From: Blattabacterium sp. (Blattella germanica) str. Bge
GTDB lineage: Bacteria > Bacteroidota > Bacteroidia > Flavobacteriales > Blattabacteriaceae
NCBI RefSeq assembly: GCF_000022605.2
Contig: NC_013454.1
Location: 372,001-436,000, forward strand
DNA: 64,000 bases
Direction: 5' to 3'
The position numbers and the translations under genes were made by a program. Each line of letters starts with the position of its first letter. The stretch's first letter is position 1. Below, in pieces: positions 8,238 through 60,066 of this stretch. The notes beneath the pieces are model-generated. The model worked only from the letters and a program-made list of their open reading frames with translations. It was not told the origin of the DNA and ran no database searches.

Positions 8238-8960
8238 TTATCTTTTTTTTGCGACTACTTGGTCTTTATATTGCAAATCAATACTTTTATATTGATTAAT
8301 ATCTATTTTATTTAGGTACTGCTTATAAAATGCTTTTAATTTATTCAATTTATTTTTAAAATTCTTGATATTTCCTAATATAATATGATGATTTCCTATT
8401 TTTGGAATTAAAATAAATAAGTTATGATCATTTTTTTTGATGCTAATAATTTGATTTTTGAGTAGTTCATCAGAGTTTATAAATTGGACCAAGTCCGCTA
8501 AATATTTATTTTCTTTTTTTGAAAAAATCCCTTTTGCTAAAATAACTTTTGACGAATAAAAAGGAGAAAGTTCTAAATTTTCTGCATCTTTGGTCAGATA
8601 ATATTCTTGATTTCCATTTTTTATTCTTAAAATGGGTTCCTTCTGCCAAACTTGAATATTCAGGGTTCCATCTACACTCAGAAACACTTCAGATCTTTTT
8701 ATAAAAGGATAATTATTTAATTTTTTTCCATTATCAATATACATAATTGACCGATTTTTTTTTTCAATTTTTTCTACTTTAGAAAATAGAATATTTTTAA
8801 TGATTTCTTCATTTACAAAATGATCTTTGGATAAGGGATCAATAACGATATTGAATTGTTTGAAATTTCTGTTTTTATGTATTTTTTGAGAAAAATAAAA
8901 AAGCGATACCATACAAATTATATATAATAATAAAATCAGGATAAAGAATTTATTTTTCAT
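8238..8960 (-). CDS. ftsQ: Cell division protein FtsQ
   Basis: This 240-residue bitopic protein has one N-terminal membrane helix (about residues 5-24) and a periplasmic part with a POTRA-like region (FNIVIDPLSKDHFVNEE onward), followed by the beta domain. Sequence identity in this family is always low. The assignment rests on topology, on motifs such as INQYKSIDLQYKDQVVAKKR at the C-terminus and on its place between murC and ftsA. It links the cytoplasmic and periplasmic parts of the divisome. It starts immediately after the murC stop with no gap. Confidence 0.88.
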   Translation of the reverse strand: MKNKFFILILLLYIICMVSLFYFSQKIHKNRNFKQFNIVIDPLSKDHFVNEEIIKNILFSKVEKIEKKNRSIMYIDNGKKLNNYPFIKRSEVFLSVDGTLNIQVWQKEPILRIKNGNQEYYLTKDAENLELSPFYSSKVILAKGIFSKKENKYLADLVQFINSDELLKNQIISIKKNDHNLFILIPKIGNHHIILGNIKNFKNKLNKLKAFYKQYLNKIDINQYKSIDLQYKDQVVAKKR

Positions 8961-11434: not shown

Positions 11435-12651
11435 GATGAATTATAATTATTATAATTTGTTTTATTTACTAAATTATTAGTATGAGTTGAATCCTCATAT
11501 ATGATTCTACTAACACTTAATATGATCCCAAAACTAAAAAAAGTAACCCACATGGAAGTTCCTCCAGCACTAATTAATGGTAAAGTTTGTCCTGTTACTG
11601 GAAATAAACCAACAGCTATTCCCATATTGATGAGTGCTTGATTAATAATAGGAAAACCAACAGCTAATACCAACAAAGAGCAAAAATAATTTTTTACCTT
11701 CGTAGCTATTACCATAATTCTAAGCAAAATTAGAAGATAAATAAATAAAAGGATTATTCCTCCAACAGATCCATATTCTTCTATTATAATAGCATAAATG
11801 AAATCAGAAGAAGATTGTGGAAGAAAAGCTTTTAAAACACTTTTACCAGGTCCACGACCAAATTTCTTTCCTAAAACAATAGCTGTTTTAGATTGTTTCA
11901 TTTGATAACTTTCTTCAGATTCATGATCCAAAAATTTTTCTATACGACTTTTCCATGTATAAACCCTATTCATAGGATTTTTATCTCCCCATTTTATGAC
12001 AGAGTAAATATAGATTCCTGCAAATAGAATCCCCATCAATAAAACTCCCATAACACCTGTTAATGGATATCCTCCTATAAAAAGCAAAATTAAAACGGAA
12101 ATAAAAACAATAACTGCAGTAGAACCATTAGCGGGGAAAATCAGTCCAATAATAAAAAACATAGGAAACAATAAGGAAAAAAAAGAGTTGATAAAATTGA
12201 TACGTTCTGTCTTTTTTTTAGCCAAATATCTAGCACAATAAATAAAAAGAACTAATCCAGCAATACTGGAAGTTTGAAAAGATATATTAATAATGGGAAT
12301 ATGTAACCACCGAGAAGCATTGACTCCATCCAATTCTTTTTCTTGACTAATAGTAAAAACTAATAAAATGAACACTACAGGCATAGAAAATATAGACATA
12401 CGGTAAAAATATTTATAGTCTATAAATTGAGTGAAAAAAAGAATGCAAAATCCAACTAAGAGAAAAAGAGCATGTTTGAACAAATAACTAAAAACTGTAT
12501 TTGTTCCTCCATATGTAGTGACTAAATTTGTACTAGCGGAATATACTGGTAAAAAAGAAAATATAGCTAATAAAGAGATAAAGGCCCATAAATATCTATC
12601 TCCTTTCAGATAACTGTTGAAAAAATCTCTATTTTTCTCATATTCTTTCAT
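11431..12651 (-). CDS. ftsW: Lipid II polymerase / cell division protein FtsW (SEDS family)
   Basis: This SEDS-family glycosyltransferase of about 406 residues works with FtsI in septal peptidoglycan synthesis. It has about ten hydrophobic segments. Family blocks include DGVNASRWLHIP, the cytoplasmic loop with GPGKSVLKAFLPQSSSDFI and the C-terminal QTLPLISAGGTSM. The reading frame stays open up to 12855, inside murD, but family members begin near MKEYEKNRDFF. I therefore take the ATG at 12651, which overlaps the murD end by only 14 nt. Confidence 0.94.
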   Translation of the reverse strand: MKEYEKNRDFFNSYLKGDRYLWAFISLLAIFSFLPVYSASTNLVTTYGGTNTVFSYLFKHALFLLVGFCILFFTQFIDYKYFYRMSIFSMPVVFILLVFTISQEKELDGVNASRWLHIPIINISFQTSSIAGLVLFIYCARYLAKKKTERINFINSFFSLLFPMFFIIGLIFPANGSTAVIVFISVLILLFIGGYPLTGVMGVLLMGILFAGIYIYSVIKWGDKNPMNRVYTWKSRIEKFLDHESEESYQMKQSKTAIVLGKKFGRGPGKSVLKAFLPQSSSDFIYAIIIEEYGSVGGIILLFIYLLILLRIMVIATKVKNYFCSLLVLAVGFPIINQALINMGIAVGLFPVTGQTLPLISAGGTSMWVTFFSFGIILSVSRIIYEDSTHTNNLVNKTNYNNYNSS

Positions 12652-13999
12652 AAAAAAGTTTTTTGACTTCTTTTTTAAATTGATTTCCTCTTTCCTTATA
12701 ATCTTTAAAAAGATCAAAACTAGAACAAGCAGGAGATAACAAAATATTATCTCCATGAGAAGACAATATGTAAGCCATATAAACAGCTTTTTGAATACTT
12801 TTTGTTTCCAAAATAATATCAATAATATCTTTAAAAAAATTATAAATTTTTTCATTATTTATTCCCAAACAAATTATAGCTTTCACTTTTTTTTGAACCA
12901 AGGGAATTAATTCTATATAATTGTTTCCTTTATCTTTTCCTCCAGCTATCCATATAATAGGTCCATTCATACTTTTGAATGCAGAAAACACGGCATGAAC
13001 ATTCGTGGCTTTAGAATCGTTAATGAATTGAACTCCATTTATACTGAGTATTTTTTCCATACGATGTTCTATAGGTTTTAATTTTAATATTGTAGAAACT
13101 ATTGATTTTTTTTTGACGTTGAATATTTCGGAGATCATTAATGAAGCCATAATATTATATAGATTATGATCTCCTATTAAAGGAATATCTTTCACATTAA
13201 AAAAACATATTTCCTGATTTTTTTGATTTCGAATAAATATTTTGTTATTTTTTATGTAAGCACCAATATGTAATTCTTCTTTTATAGAAAAAGGAATACA
13301 GTGAGAAAAAATAGGATACTTTTTTAATCCTTTTCTTATGAGAGGATCATCATGATTATAAATGAAAATATCTTCTTTTTTTTGCAAAGTTGCTATTTTA
13401 AATTTGGAATGCATGTAACTTTCTATATCATCATATCTATCTAAATGATCTTCTGTAATATTTAACAAAACTGCAATATTTGATCTAAATATTTGACAAT
13501 CATCTAATTGAAAACTACTGACTTCTAATACATAAACGTCTTTTTTTTTTATAACTTCTTTAGAAAAACTACGTCCAATATTTCCTGCGATTCCGACATC
13601 AATTCCTTCTCTTTTAAGGATTTTATAAATTATGGAACTTGTCGTTGTTTTTCCATTACTTCCTGTTATACTTATAATATAGGAGTGGTCTAGATAACTT
13701 TTTCCGAATTCTAATTCGGATTGAATAGGAATTCCCAAAAAATTAATTCTTTTTATAAAAGAGTTTTTTCTAGAAATTCCAGGACTTTTTATGATTTTTA
13801 TAGCTTTTTGAGTTATTATGCTTTCTGTATGTCCTTGATCTTCAAAAGAAATTTTATTTTTTATTAAAATTTTTTTGTATTTATTTAAAATAATTCCTGA
13901 ATCAGACAAAAATATTTTTAATCCATTTTTTTTGGCTAATAAAGCAGCTCCTACCCCACTTTCTCCTCCACCCAATACTACTATGAGTTTTTTTTTCAT
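12638..13999 (-). CDS. murD: UDP-N-acetylmuramoyl-L-alanine--D-glutamate ligase
   Basis: MurD adds D-Glu, supplied by MurI (encoded at 34 kb), to UDP-MurNAc-L-Ala. The 453-residue protein shows VLGGGESGVGAALLAKK at the N-terminus, the ATP loop GSNGKTTTSSI near 113, ITEDHLDRYD near 180, IWIAGGKDKGNNY near 345 and the late LLSPACSSFDLF, all characteristic of MurD. It starts 6 nt after mraY and overlaps ftsW by 14 nt. Confidence 0.96.
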   Translation of the reverse strand: MKKKLIVVLGGGESGVGAALLAKKNGLKIFLSDSGIILNKYKKILIKNKISFEDQGHTESIITQKAIKIIKSPGISRKNSFIKRINFLGIPIQSELEFGKSYLDHSYIISITGSNGKTTTSSIIYKILKREGIDVGIAGNIGRSFSKEVIKKKDVYVLEVSSFQLDDCQIFRSNIAVLLNITEDHLDRYDDIESYMHSKFKIATLQKKEDIFIYNHDDPLIRKGLKKYPIFSHCIPFSIKEELHIGAYIKNNKIFIRNQKNQEICFFNVKDIPLIGDHNLYNIMASLMISEIFNVKKKSIVSTILKLKPIEHRMEKILSINGVQFINDSKATNVHAVFSAFKSMNGPIIWIAGGKDKGNNYIELIPLVQKKVKAIICLGINNEKIYNFFKDIIDIILETKSIQKAVYMAYILSSHGDNILLSPACSSFDLFKDYKERGNQFKKEVKKLFYERI

Positions 14000-14005
14000 T
14001 GTTAT

Positions 14006-15203
14006 TTATATAATTAATAAAATCAATACCAACATAGAAAGCATCATTTGTATGATGATAAAACGATTGAAAATTTTATTTTCATGATATCCTAATTTTT
14101 GAAAATGATGATGCAAAGGAGCCATGAGAAAAATTCTTTTTCCTATACCATATTTTTTTTTAGAATATCTAAAATACAATACTTGTATTATGACAGAAAT
14201 ATTTTCTATAAAAAAAATTCCACATAAAATAGGTAATATCAATTCTTTCCTATTTATAATAGCTAGAGTCGCTATAACTCCTCCTAAAGTCAAGCTACCA
14301 GTATCTCCCATGAAAATTTGAGCTGGATAGGTATTGTACCAAAGAAAGCTTATTAAAGCTCCTAAAAAAGAAAAAGAAAATATGAGGATTTCATCTAAAT
14401 GAGGAATATATATAAAATGAAGATGAGATGAATATATTTTATTACTGGATATGATAGATAATAAAGATAAAGTAGCAAAAATAATAGAGGAAATTCCAGC
14501 TGTCAATCCGTCTATTCCATCGGTTAGATTCGCTCCGTTGGATAAAAATGTCATAATTAAAATCACTATAGGGATAAAAACGATCCATGTATATTTTTTC
14601 CATTTTTTATTATACCAGCTTAAAAGATAAGCATAATCAAATTCATTTTTATGACTAGAAAAAATGGGAATAGGAATAGTGGTCTTGAATCCATGTTCTT
14701 TTTTTTCCAATAAATTGGAATCTATTTTTTGAATAGAAACATTTGTATTAAAAAAATACATAGTGCTTCCAATTAAAAGCCCTAATAGAATCTGACCTAA
14801 TATTTTTCCCATTATACTAAGTCCTTTTTTGTTATATTTTATTTTAATGTAATCATCTAAAAATCCAAGAAACCCCATATGTAACATTGTGATAATCAAA
14901 ATAATTACATATATATTCTTCAAAGAAGAGAAAAGAATTGTAGGAATTAATGTGGAAAATATCATTACAATTCCTCCCATCGTTGGAATTCCTTCTTTTT
15001 CTTTTTGTCCAATAAGTCCAAGATTTCGTATATGTTCTCCTATGCTATTTTTTTTTCTATGATTCCAACATATAATCTTTTTATAAAAAACCAAACGCTA
15101 TACAAAACGACAAAAAAAAAGCTATTACAGCTCTTAAAAAAACAGAAACAGAATTTATCAAAGAAATAAAAATTAAGTATTTTAATAAACAAGCAATCAT
15201 CAT
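14006..15203 (-). CDS. mraY: Phospho-MurNAc-pentapeptide transferase MraY, with a one-base frameshift near the 5' end
   Basis: MraY makes lipid I by moving phospho-MurNAc-pentapeptide onto undecaprenyl phosphate. The long frame (15094 down) holds GIPTMGGIVMI, LDDYIKIKYNKKGLS, NGANLTDGIDGLTAG, GDTGSLTLGG and the late APLHHHFQKLG, but its only start is a TTG inside the gene. The missing N-terminus is in another frame. From the ATG at 15203, one base after the murE stop, 39 codons read MMIACLLKYL up to RAVIAFFLSFCIAFGF and then stop. Removing one T from the T6 run at 15085-15090 joins both parts into about 398 residues, normal for Bacteroidota. The T9 run at 15112-15120 cannot be the site, because an in-frame TAG follows. 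This essential gene may depend on slippage, or the base may be a sequence error. Confidence 0.9.
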
Positions 15204-16710: not shown

Positions 16711-18677
16711 TCTTCTAGTTTAAGAAATATAATCTGATTTCTTTTCAATTTATTTCCTGGTTGAATAGACTGATGAACCACTTTTCCGATTCCTTGATAT
16801 TGAATATGAAAACCCCTATTTTCTAGGATAGGTATAATTTCTTTTCCAGGAGTGGATATGACATTAGGCATAATCCATTTTTCAACAAAAAAATTTTTAG
16901 ACTCTTTAATCTTTTTAAGTAAATTTTCTTGATTTTCTTTTTTTTTGCAAAATGTTTTTTTTTCTATTTTTGGATAAATAGATTTAGCTATTTTATCAAA
17001 TACAGGAACTGCTACTTCAATTCCGTAATATCCTTTTTCTGGTTTTGAAATGACTACAATACAAGAATATTTTGGATTTTTAGCGGGAAAGTATCCTACG
17101 AAAGAACTATTGTAAGACAAAGGTTTTCCTTTGATCCAGTAGTTTAACTGTGTTGTGCCAGTTTTTCCTGCATAAGGATATTCTGGATTGTAATATTTTT
17201 TAGCTGTTCCATTTTTTACGACTCCTTCCAACATATTTTGAATTTTGATGAGAGAAGATTTTTCAGCTATAGAAGGATTCATTATAATAGGTTTTGTATA
17301 TTTTTTGATACTTTTTCCATGATGTTTGATTTCTCTGATAAATAAAGGTTTAATCATTTTTCCTTGATTGGCTATAGCATTGTAAAAAGTGAGTATTTGT
17401 AAAGGAGTTAGTTTGATATTATATCCAAAAGTCATCCATGGTAATGTAATGCTACTCCAATTCTTTTTTCCAGGTTTTGGAATGAAAGGCATACTTTCAC
17501 CTGGAATCTCTATCCCTATTTTTCTATCTAATTTCCATTTACATAAGTGTCCTATGAATTGTTCTGGATTTTTTTTATAATTCTCATAAATAATTTTTGC
17601 TATTCCTACATTTGAAGATAATTCCAAAATTTGTTTTGGATTCATTTCTGCATATCCATTGTAGTGACTATCACGTATTTTTTTTCCTCTTAATTTCATG
17701 ACTCCTCCTTTTATATTCACTATCATATCAAGATCTATTTTTTTATCTTCTAGAGCAGCAAGAATTGCCATGGTTTTAAACGTGGAGCCTGGTTCACTTC
17801 CTTCCCATACTGCAAAATTTCTTAAATCTTCGTAAGTATTTTTTTTGGTTTTTTCTAGATTAATCATAGCAGGGATTTCTCCACTTTTTACATCCATAAG
17901 AATAACACATCCATGATCTGCTTTTGATATAGATAATTCTTGAAGTAATGCATGGTAAGCTATATCTTGCAAATATATATCGATAGTCGAATAAACATCT
18001 TTTCCATCTTCTGGATCGATTTCATTTCCTGATTTTAATGGTTTCCATATTTTAGAACTGATACGTTGTTCTAATCTCTTTCCATCTTTTCCTTTTAAAT
18101 ATTTGCTAAAGGCTCCTTCTAGTCCTACTTTCCCTCTATGATCATCATACCCTAATGTTCTTTTTCCAATATTTTCTAATGTATGAATTCTGCATATTTT
18201 TTTTTCTACAATAAACCCACCCTTGATTTGTCCTTTATTAAAAATAGGAAGATTTCGTAATATTTTGAAATGTGGATAATCTAAATTTTTTGCTAACAAA
18301 AAATATCTATTCCCTTTTTTTTTCATACTGAAATTTTTTATAGAAAAAAATTTTGGTTTTTTAAACAAAGATTCCAATGAGTTACATAAAGAATAAATAT
18401 TCTCTTGAAATAACTTTTCAGATATGGATCTAAAATCAATGTGAATATCATATCTTATGACAGACATAGCTAGAATACTACTATCTGATGCATAAATGTT
18501 TCCACGTTTAGCTTTAATTAAATTGGTTCTAATCGTTTTTTCTATAACAGATTTTTTGTATCTTTCTGAATAATTTTGAATATAGAACAAATTGAAAATA
18601 ATTAATGCTGCAATAAAGATGAATAAAAAACCAATTAAGTAAGATTTATATAATAAAATATATCTTTTTCGTTTCAT
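16707..18677 (-). CDS. ftsI: Septal penicillin-binding protein (FtsI/PBP2B-like transpeptidase with PASTA tail)
   Basis: This class B PBP of 656 residues cross-links septal peptidoglycan. It has a single N-terminal membrane anchor (about residues 9-33) and a dimerisation (pedestal) domain beginning with AKRGNIYASDSSILA. The transpeptidase domain has the active-site SxxK as STFK (298-301), SSN near 353 and KTGTT near 510. The last 65 residues form a PASTA-like domain (MPNVISTPGKEIIPILENRG onward), usual in Bacteroidota FtsI. It lies between ftsL and murE, overlapping murE by 4 nt. Confidence 0.94.
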   Translation of the reverse strand: MKRKRYILLYKSYLIGFLFIFIAALIIFNLFYIQNYSERYKKSVIEKTIRTNLIKAKRGNIYASDSSILAMSVIRYDIHIDFRSISEKLFQENIYSLCNSLESLFKKPKFFSIKNFSMKKKGNRYFLLAKNLDYPHFKILRNLPIFNKGQIKGGFIVEKKICRIHTLENIGKRTLGYDDHRGKVGLEGAFSKYLKGKDGKRLEQRISSKIWKPLKSGNEIDPEDGKDVYSTIDIYLQDIAYHALLQELSISKADHGCVILMDVKSGEIPAMINLEKTKKNTYEDLRNFAVWEGSEPGSTFKTMAILAALEDKKIDLDMIVNIKGGVMKLRGKKIRDSHYNGYAEMNPKQILELSSNVGIAKIIYENYKKNPEQFIGHLCKWKLDRKIGIEIPGESMPFIPKPGKKNWSSITLPWMTFGYNIKLTPLQILTFYNAIANQGKMIKPLFIREIKHHGKSIKKYTKPIIMNPSIAEKSSLIKIQNMLEGVVKNGTAKKYYNPEYPYAGKTGTTQLNYWIKGKPLSYNSSFVGYFPAKNPKYSCIVVISKPEKGYYGIEVAVPVFDKIAKSIYPKIEKKTFCKKKENQENLLKKIKESKNFFVEKWIMPNVISTPGKEIIPILENRGFHIQYQGIGKVVHQSIQPGNKLKRNQIIFLKLEE

Positions 18678-22261: not shown

Positions 22262-23769
22262 TTCATTTCAAACCCTGCTATATATACTTGTCCATTTTGT
22301 TTAATAGATTTTATAGTAACATCTCCTGAGTATTTTTTTAAAACGCGATCTACATCATTAGGTTTTCTCATTTTTTCTCCATTAATAGATAAAATAATGT
22401 CTCCTTCTTCCATTCCTATAGAACTTAAACGACCTGTTCTAATTTCTCTTATTCTAATTCCATAATCAATGCCAAAATCTTTTTTATACTCTTGACTAAG
22501 TGGTTCAAATGTTGCTCCTAATAATTCAGATGGACTAATTTCCTCTCTATTTCTTATTTTTGTTCTTCCTTGCAAATCTTTTAAAGTTACGTTAAAGGTT
22601 TTTTTATGTCCGTTCCGTATAATATTTACTTTTACCTTATCCCCTGGATGTTTTGTTCCTACAATAAATGATAAATCCGCAACATTTTGTATTGGTTTTC
22701 CGTCTATGCTTTTTATGATATCTCCTTTTTTCATACCTGCATCTGCAGCTCCACTTTGATCAAATACTTCTCCTATTAAAAAACCTTGTTGTGGTTTTAT
22801 GTTTTGATGTGTTTCTTTATTATAAGCCTTTAAGTATTCTGTTTTAGAAAGATCCATTCCTCTAACTCCTAAATATGCACGTTGTACTGTACCATATTTT
22901 TTGATATCTTGTATAACTTTTGCTACTAAATTAGAAGGAGCCGCGAAACTATATCCTATAAAATTTCCTGAAGATGAAGAAATAGCTGTATTAATTCCAA
23001 TTAACTCTCCATTTGTATTAACCAATGCCCCTCCACTATTTCCAGGATTGACAGCTGCATCTGTTTGAAAAAAAGATTCAATAGCTGATTGTGTTTCTCC
23101 TCTTAATATTCCTAAACTTCTGTTTTTTGCACTGATAATCCCTGCTGTGACAGTAGAATTTAAATCAAAAGGGTTTCCTATTGCTAAAACCCATTCTCCT
23201 ACCTGGACTTTATTAGAATCCGAAAAATAAATAAAAGGTAAATTTTTATCACTTATTTTTAATAATGCGATATCCGTGCTCGGATCTGTTCCTATCAATT
23301 TAGCTCTATAAGTTCTTTGATCATTCAGAGTGATTTCAATTTTTTCTGCGTCTTTGATCACATGATTATTAGTTACAATATATCCATCCGGTGAGACGAT
23401 AACTCCTGATCCATGAAGTCCAGGAAGGTCATTTTTTTGGGGTTTTTTTCCTCTATTTCCAAAATCATCAGGAAATCCAAAAAAAGAAATCAAATGGATC
23501 AAATTGGTTGTTATATTTTTTTTGTAATAATTTTTTACATTTACTACTGCATGTATTGTTTTGGCTACAACTCTGGTAAAATCAGGCGATCCTGCAGAAC
23601 CAACCAATGATGAAGAATCTGATGAAGTTAGTTTTGTTTTTGACAAAGAAGAAGATGATGTATATGGAAAAAGAAAAGGATCTTCTTTAGTGTATTGTTT
23701 ATAAGCAGCAATGGTTATGATTGAACTCATAATACTGCTAAGTATAATATAAAAAACTATTCTCTTCAT
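22258..23769 (-). CDS. htrA: Periplasmic serine protease DegP/HtrA
   Basis: This 503-residue envelope protease and chaperone has an N-terminal membrane/signal segment (about residues 4-22), then a trypsin-like domain with the catalytic triad His136 in TNNHVI, Asp166 in STDIALL and Ser245 in NPGNSGGAL, followed by two PDZ domains (about 295-395 and 415-500). A Ser-rich linker (38-60) follows the signal. All catalytic residues are present. A TATATTTG box lies 30 nt upstream. It converges on the LptF/G gene with a 4-nt overlap and diverges from dapF. Confidence 0.95.
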   Translation of the reverse strand: MKRIVFYIILSSIMSSIITIAAYKQYTKEDPFLFPYTSSSSLSKTKLTSSDSSSLVGSAGSPDFTRVVAKTIHAVVNVKNYYKKNITTNLIHLISFFGFPDDFGNRGKKPQKNDLPGLHGSGVIVSPDGYIVTNNHVIKDAEKIEITLNDQRTYRAKLIGTDPSTDIALLKISDKNLPFIYFSDSNKVQVGEWVLAIGNPFDLNSTVTAGIISAKNRSLGILRGETQSAIESFFQTDAAVNPGNSGGALVNTNGELIGINTAISSSSGNFIGYSFAAPSNLVAKVIQDIKKYGTVQRAYLGVRGMDLSKTEYLKAYNKETHQNIKPQQGFLIGEVFDQSGAADAGMKKGDIIKSIDGKPIQNVADLSFIVGTKHPGDKVKVNIIRNGHKKTFNVTLKDLQGRTKIRNREEISPSELLGATFEPLSQEYKKDFGIDYGIRIREIRTGRLSSIGMEEGDIILSINGEKMRKPNDVDRVLKKYSGDVTIKSIKQNGQVYIAGFEMN

Positions 23770-48308: not shown

Positions 48309-48857
48309 ATGAATAAAATACTGATTTTGGATAATTATGATTCTTTTACTTATAATCTTGTTCATGCTGTAAAAAAATTAACAAAAAATCCCGTAGAAGT
48401 ATCTAGAAATAATGAAATTCAACTTTCTGATATAGAAAAATATAACAAGATTATTCTTTCTCCAGGCCCTGGAATTCCAGATGAAGCACATATTCTAAAA
48501 CCTTTAGTAAAGACTTTTGCTTCTACTAAAAGTATTTTTGGAGTTTGTTTGGGGCAACAAGCTATAGGAGAAGTATTTGGAGCTACTCTTCTGAATACAA
48601 AGGAAGTTTATCATGGAATAGCTAGTTTGATCAAAATTGTGGATCCAAAAGAAATTATTTTTCAAAAATTACCTAGAGAAATCAAGGTAGGTCGTTATCA
48701 TTCTTGGATTATATCTCCACAAAATTTTCCTGAAGAACTTCAGATTACAGCTATTGGAGATAAAGGAGAAATTATGGCTTTACGTCATAAATTTTATGAT
48801 GTTCGTGGAGTTCAATTTCATCCAGAATCCATTTTGACTCCATATGGAGAAAAATAA
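48309..48857 (+). CDS. trpG: Anthranilate synthase component II (glutamine amidotransferase), C-terminus cut by a frameshift
   Basis: This class I glutaminase makes ammonia for TrpE. The nucleophile Cys is in FGVCLGQQAIGEVFG, the His/Glu pair in VQFHPESILT, and LDNYDSFTYNLVH and SPGPGIPDEA are also present. The frame stops at 48857 right after TPYGEK. Adding one A to the A5 run at 48850-48854 gives EKIINNWLKMK and a stop at 48881-48883, just 2 nt before the trpD ATG. That tail resembles the family's usual KILENWLKL ending. All catalytic residues precede the break, so the short form may still work. Confidence 0.93.
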   Translation: MNKILILDNYDSFTYNLVHAVKKLTKNPVEVSRNNEIQLSDIEKYNKIILSPGPGIPDEAHILKPLVKTFASTKSIFGVCLGQQAIGEVFGATLLNTKEVYHGIASLIKIVDPKEIIFQKLPREIKVGRYHSWIISPQNFPEELQITAIGDKGEIMALRHKFYDVRGVQFHPESILTPYGEK

Positions 48858-48885
48858 TAAATAATTGGCTGAAAATGAAGTAAAT

Positions 48886-58758: not shown

Positions 58759-60066
58759 ATGGATAATATGATTCAAGTGTATATTCATCCTACATACAAA
58801 ACATGTCAATCTATTTTGAATAGGTCTTCGGAAAAAATTTCTCACCTAACGGATTTAGTTCTTTCCATCATAAATAATGTAAAAAATAATGGGGACACAG
58901 CCGTAAAAACTTATACAAGAAAATATGATCATGTTGATATCAAACATATTCAAGTAACAGAAGAAGATTTTCAAAAAGCAAACATGAAAGTTTCAAGTCA
59001 TTTAAGAAAATCTATAGAGATAGCATATAAAAATATCGAATGTTTTCACAAAAAACAAATACATGAAGAATCAAAAATAGAAGTTTCAACAGGAGTTTTT
59101 TGTTGGAGAAAATCTGTTCCAATAGAAAAAGTGGGTTTTTATATTCCTGGTGGATCCGCACCTTTATTGTCCACTGTCTTAATGTTAGGAGTTCCAGGAA
59201 AATTGGCAGGATGCAAAAATATTGTTTTATGTAGTCCCCCCAATAAGAATGGAGAGATTCATCCATCCGTTCTATACACAGCTAAATATGTTGGAATTAA
59301 TCAAATCTATAAAGTAGGAGGAGTTCAGGCTATTGCTGCTATGGCTTATGGAACAGAGAGTATTCCTTCCGTATACAAAATATTTGGTCCCGGAAATTGT
59401 TATGTGACAATAGCTAAGCAAATTGTATCCCAAAAAGGAATTGTATCTATAGATATGCCTGCAGGGCCTTCAGAAGTTGTTATTATGGCTGATGATGAAG
59501 CGAATCCAAAATATGTAGCCTCCGATTTACTTTCTCAATCTGAACATGATCCAGAAAGTTATATTCTTTTAGTTACTATAAATAATAAATCTTGGATAGA
59601 AAAAGTCAAAGAAGAATTAAAAAAACAATTTTATCATCTTTCTAAAAAAAAGATATTATTGAAAATCTTTAGAAAAAGTAAAATAGTTGTTTTTTCCTCT
59701 TTAGAAGAATGTATGAATTTTATCAATCAAGTAGCCCCTGAACATCTCATTATTAATTGTAATAATGTTTCTTATTGGAGTGAAAAAGTGATTAATGCTG
59801 GATCTGTTTTTTTAGGAAATTATTCTCCAGTCAGTATTGGGGATTATGCTTCCGGAACCAACCATGTATTGCCCACATATGGTTATGCAAAATCTTACAG
59901 TGGAGTATCTGTAGATAGTTTTGTTAAAAAAATAACTTTTCAAAAAATATCCAAGAAAGGATTGCAAAATTTATCGGAATGTGTAAATGTTTTATCTTCC
60001 GAAGAAGGATTAATTGCTCATAAAAAATCCATTGATATTCGATTAAAAAATGAATTTCATGAATAG
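58759..60066 (+). CDS. hisD: Histidinol dehydrogenase
   Basis: HisD performs the last two oxidations, histidinol to histidine, with NAD and zinc. The 435-residue enzyme has YIPGGSAPLLSTVLMLG near 128, KVGGVQAIAAMAYGTESIP, FGPGNCYVTIAK, DMPAGPSEVVIMADDEANP, LLSQSEHDPES and QVAPEHLIINC (catalytic Glu/His), and YASGTNHVLPTYGYAK. Intact. It follows hisG by 6 nt and overlaps hisC by 17 nt. Confidence 0.96.
   Translation: MDNMIQVYIHPTYKTCQSILNRSSEKISHLTDLVLSIINNVKNNGDTAVKTYTRKYDHVDIKHIQVTEEDFQKANMKVSSHLRKSIEIAYKNIECFHKKQIHEESKIEVSTGVFCWRKSVPIEKVGFYIPGGSAPLLSTVLMLGVPGKLAGCKNIVLCSPPNKNGEIHPSVLYTAKYVGINQIYKVGGVQAIAAMAYGTESIPSVYKIFGPGNCYVTIAKQIVSQKGIVSIDMPAGPSEVVIMADDEANPKYVASDLLSQSEHDPESYILLVTINNKSWIEKVKEELKKQFYHLSKKKILLKIFRKSKIVVFSSLEECMNFINQVAPEHLIINCNNVSYWSEKVINAGSVFLGNYSPVSIGDYASGTNHVLPTYGYAKSYSGVSVDSFVKKITFQKISKKGLQNLSECVNVLSSEEGLIAHKKSIDIRLKNEFHE

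Follow-up and report, generated by a model that had tools for sequence, protein, structure and literature searches.

The mraY locus and its frame break

The window analysed here, a 64,000-nucleotide stretch of the chromosome of Blattabacterium sp. (Blattella germanica) str. Bge (chromosome of 636,850 bp, within a 640,935-bp genome), holds a dcw-type cluster in which we recognised murC, murG, ftsW, murD, mraY, murE, an ftsI-type PBP gene and rsmH. Flanked by murE and murD, mraY is encoded on the minus strand, and the neighbouring murC, murG, ftsW, murD, murE and ftsI-type genes are open. The longest ftsW frame runs 218 nt into murD (window 12638-12855, minus strand), and the ftsW start is probably further downstream. 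The coding sequence of mraY itself is divided between two reading frames.

15081-15203, minus strand: mraY frame A, from ATG 15203 to the TAA at 15083-15081, 40 codons (MMIACLLKYLIFISLINSVSVFLRAVIAFFLSFCIAFGFL), first transmembrane helix
14006-15094, minus strand: mraY frame B, open between TTG 15094 and a stop at 14006, with the other 361-362 codons

Translation of the reading frames in the window showed that frame B is +1 relative to frame A and carries the rest of MraY. Frame A aligns with the N-terminus of the intact MraY of congeners, and frame B scores 267.8 bits against the TIGR00445 mraY profile, for which the curated equivalog cut-off is 192.05. The deposited gene lacks a single continuous frame that includes the first helix, as the TAA at 15083-15081 intervenes; this break is the sole difference from MraY (phospho-N-acetylmuramoyl-pentapeptide-transferase; TIGR00445; structure 4j72), and the protein is otherwise ordinary. 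A family search of the whole 640,935-bp genome found no second PF00953 gene. The original prediction, which had read the locus as an N-terminal helix starting at ATG 15203 and then a stop, with the remainder in a second frame as the result of a single-base frameshift, is borne out by the frames and by the relatives, and the second mraY elsewhere in the genome that it named as a refutation is absent.

Position of the extra base

The shift can lie anywhere in the 18 bases at 15083-15100, an interval bounded upstream by the frame B TAG (15100) and downstream by the frame A TAA. Removal of any single base from 15100 to 15083 opens the mraY frame, including any of the three T at 15095-15093. Three elements bear on the placement of the indel.

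15098-15100, minus strand: in-frame TAG of frame B, which bars shifts further upstream, including the T9 tract within 15127-15108
15093-15095, minus strand: T3, by alignment T2 in the closest relatives, inside the permitted interval; the position that accounts for the extra base most parsimoniously
15085-15090, minus strand: T6 run, by alignment of equal length in the closest intact relatives

In alignment, the three closest relatives (G018, G042 and G011) read TTGG-TTTTTT-ATAAA where the Bge sequence reads TTTGG-TTTTTT-ATAA, and frame B keeps the relatives' residues ..LVFYKK.. exactly. Because all three share the T6 run with an intact frame and have T2 upstream of it, the indel belongs to the T3 and not to 15085-15090. 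The most parsimonious reading of the alignment is, therefore, that the extra base would lie in the preceding T run, 15095-15093, and that T6 is the normal length there. The original prediction had confined the shift to GGTTTTTTATAA, that is, to the T6 at 15085-15090. Its two limits, the TAG and the TAA, do bound the shift, but they do not leave T6 alone, since the interval between them also takes in the T3; with intact relatives carrying the same T6, we reject that run as the indel site.

mraY across the genus

We searched 49 genomes of the genus, Bge and 48 congeners. The gene is present in 48 of 48 congeners, and its frame is open wherever the full length was examined. A query with the enzyme body returned single stop-free frames of 383-414 aa in all of the 24 congeners that it covered, and a query with the N-terminus returned open frames across the genus, Bge being the exception. 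In two genomes (G004 and G017) one TAA falls in the weakly conserved start of the N-terminal alignment, and the body query showed their full-length frames to be open. Among the 49 genomes the mraY frameshift is private to Bge rather than kept across strains or species, and no conserved slippery element was found at mraY in any of them.

In mraY, private changes at codon positions 1 and 2 stand in a ratio of 0.244 to those at position 3, which places it at the 45th percentile of genes, and by this ratio the rest of the gene has no sign of decay. The gene thus appears, from its substitutions, to evolve under ordinary constraint in the Bge lineage, as a working gene would. This constraint and the open neighbouring wall genes agree with the earlier judgement that MraY is unlikely to be dead.

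Excess of private one-base indels in the Bge chromosome

We read four genomes in full and counted private 1-nt indels in gene interiors across 505 gene alignments. There were 37 in Bge versus 0, 4 and 2 in the three relatives. Private indels of a multiple of three, per 1000 private substitutions, numbered 8.3 in Bge versus 8.5, 5.0 and 8.3. Bge combines an excess of private one-base indels with a normal in-frame rate, as expected of sequencing or consensus error. Neighbouring private indels no more than 90 nt apart were observed 20 times versus 0.48 expected. Many of the 37 form pairs or sets in which the frame is regained within about 20-90 nt, and 17 such frame-restoring sets were found. Suppressor indels that arose in evolution should fall in variable sequence; instead, the affected segments are as conserved as genes at large, with an identity among the other three genomes of 0.847 in the frame-restoring segments versus 0.847 in whole genes. 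The sets scramble conserved motifs, namely KRNPQDFSLWK of CysS (KKNPQDFALWK in the solved structure 6ujd), PNGAFY of the aminotransferase and a motif of RecG; in one set, two stops remain within the gene.

Private substitutions do not rise near the indels (0.040 versus 0.040), which indicates events that involve indels only, as in pyrosequencing, and rules out clusters of generally low-quality sequence. Several of the private indels remove a single G or C that separates A runs, or alter a short run by one base. The unpaired ones lie mostly near gene ends, and mraY is the clear example of a shift that was left uncorrected near the start of a gene. Loss of mismatch repair was rejected as the cause of the excess, MutS and MutL being present and open in 49 of 49 genomes.

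A probable one-base error in the published sequence

The interpretation that we consider very probable is that the frameshift stems from a consensus error of one base in the published Bge chromosome, an extra T in GCG-TTT-GG (15095-15093), and that the organism has an ordinary intact mraY. Judged from the sequence comparison, the extra base is most likely absent from the real DNA. Because the gene is intact in 48 of 48 relatives and the Bge sequence has an excess of one-base slips, the break is likely to be a mistake of the 2009 sequence and not a case of special decoding. The organism's gene would be continuous, with about 397 codons, and would encode the usual phospho-MurNAc-pentapeptide transferase. 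According to the cited passages of the genome paper, CP001487 was obtained from 1.5-fold Sanger plus 454 sequence and assembled in Gap4 (PMC2768785). Pyrosequencing-type consensus errors in such a 454-heavy assembly account for the private indels most simply, and many frames might then have been regained through editing or calling at a wrong nearby base. Chance errors would not pair by themselves, so that hand or frame-guided editing must be assumed; those passages of the genome paper do not document it (PMC2768785). Two further points count against an error. The same passages describe the contigs as highly reliable and report only one pseudogene (PMC2768785), and the mraY indel lies in a run of two or three T, which is atypical of long-homopolymer error. 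The portions of the Blattabacterium literature that were searched mention neither mraY nor frameshifts in Bge. A parallel is provided by the interrupted coding sequences attributed to sequencing error in Mycobacterium smegmatis, where, in the part of that report cited here, a one-base change likewise makes otherwise constrained genes of a deposited genome look disrupted (PMC1852416); the Bge case differs from these in being known from sequence comparison alone and in that many of the indels occur in frame-restoring pairs.

Alternative explanations

One could also envision that the frameshift is real. It might be an inactivating mutation of very recent origin, perhaps varying between the many genome copies or between individuals, in a gene that is otherwise intact. 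The single private event and the undecayed remainder of mraY are what such a mutation would leave, and indels do kill symbiont genes. It would, however, have struck the sole MraY-type gene in the genome, amid open wall genes, in a symbiont that makes its own cell wall according to the cited passages of its genome paper (PMC2768785), and the excess of similar indels spans the genome and is not specific to mraY. We regard this as very unlikely. A real frameshift might alternatively be corrected in expression, by RNA polymerase slippage at T6 or by a +1 shift of the ribosome at GGU UUU UUA UAA, and the ordinary constraint on mraY would be expected if that were so. Expression-level correction has been put forward for Buchnera and Blochmannia genes with frameshifts, and the cited part of that report refers to work in which full-length products came from frameshifted symbiont genes, at about 30% of transcripts (PMC3017870). 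Those cases resemble the present one in concerning an AT-rich insect symbiont and an essential, undecayed gene with a one-base shift; they differ in that their frameshifts, some of them common to several species, lie in long poly(A) or poly(T) tracts, whereas in Bge the site is T2/T3, the indel is private to one assembly and the adjoining run is T6. A slippage-corrected frameshift of this class would be expected in a homopolymer of about 9 or more, and T6 is short. The upstream T9 tract offers no help, and slippage there is ruled out, since the TAG at 15100 closes frame B. In Buchnera, transcript deletions amount to about 1.75e-5 per nt overall and climb with run length, and the passages of that survey cited here report no restored reading frame, which counts against recoding (PMC5574713). 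No congener needs or conserves the site. We consider recoding decidedly improbable; the run-length or recoding behaviour suggested in the original prediction finds no support, and the genome-wide surplus of private one-base indels speaks instead for errors in the sequence as deposited.

A more general version of the same idea is that the Bge lineage tolerates frameshifts through slippage-prone transcription or translation, so that indels are frequent and later balanced nearby, with mraY caught unbalanced but rescued; this appears to us very improbable. We give hardly any credence to a split enzyme, in which the N-terminal helix of 40 codons would assemble with a 362-aa remainder, made from TTG 15094 by termination-reinitiation, into a putative working MraY. 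The possible start at 15094-15092 does overlap the end of frame A, with the TTG beginning 11 nt upstream of the TAA, and the remainder retains nearly the whole TIGR00445 match. The equivalent codon of congeners is nevertheless internal to one frame, the alignment with solved MraY structures extends over the first helix, and a hypothetical two-piece assembly of a membrane protein would be required; we found no support for termination-reinitiation at TTG 15094.

If the frameshift is a consensus error, a false lead on the recoding of an essential cell-wall gene is removed. The Bge reference chromosome is then likely to contain dozens of one-base indel errors, several of them hidden as frame-restoring pairs that would leave wrong protein segments in cysS, recG and an aminotransferase, and comparative and metabolic work on Bge proteins would be affected.

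Other affected sites

Private indels were located at the following sites in the window.

8716-8774, minus strand: frame-restoring pair, A10 versus A9 and then A7 versus A8, which alters a conserved GQLCILRME; a probable sequence error
18303-18360, minus strand: similar pair in the ftsI-type PBP gene, T7 versus T8 plus a 2-nt loss
23473-23535, minus strand: similar private indel set (+2, +1) that changes a DPFDFFFGFPDD-like segment
45115-45136, minus strand, and 48836-48863, plus strand: uncompensated private out-of-frame indels, with C-terminal parts shortened or changed
59640-59677, plus strand: private out-of-frame indel(s)

Outside the window, frame-restoring pairs are present in cysS, an aspartate-type aminotransferase gene and recG (chromosome near 567.4 kb, 353.7 kb and 146.4 kb, respectively), and the deposited proteins are probably wrong at these positions. 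An apparent split at 544 kb was set aside as two separate genes, which G018 alone has as a fusion. Near 271.4 kb of the chromosome, a siroheme-synthase-fusion-like protein of 487 aa in close relatives is broken in Bge after about 203 codons at A6 versus A7, a split that may be an error or a real fission.
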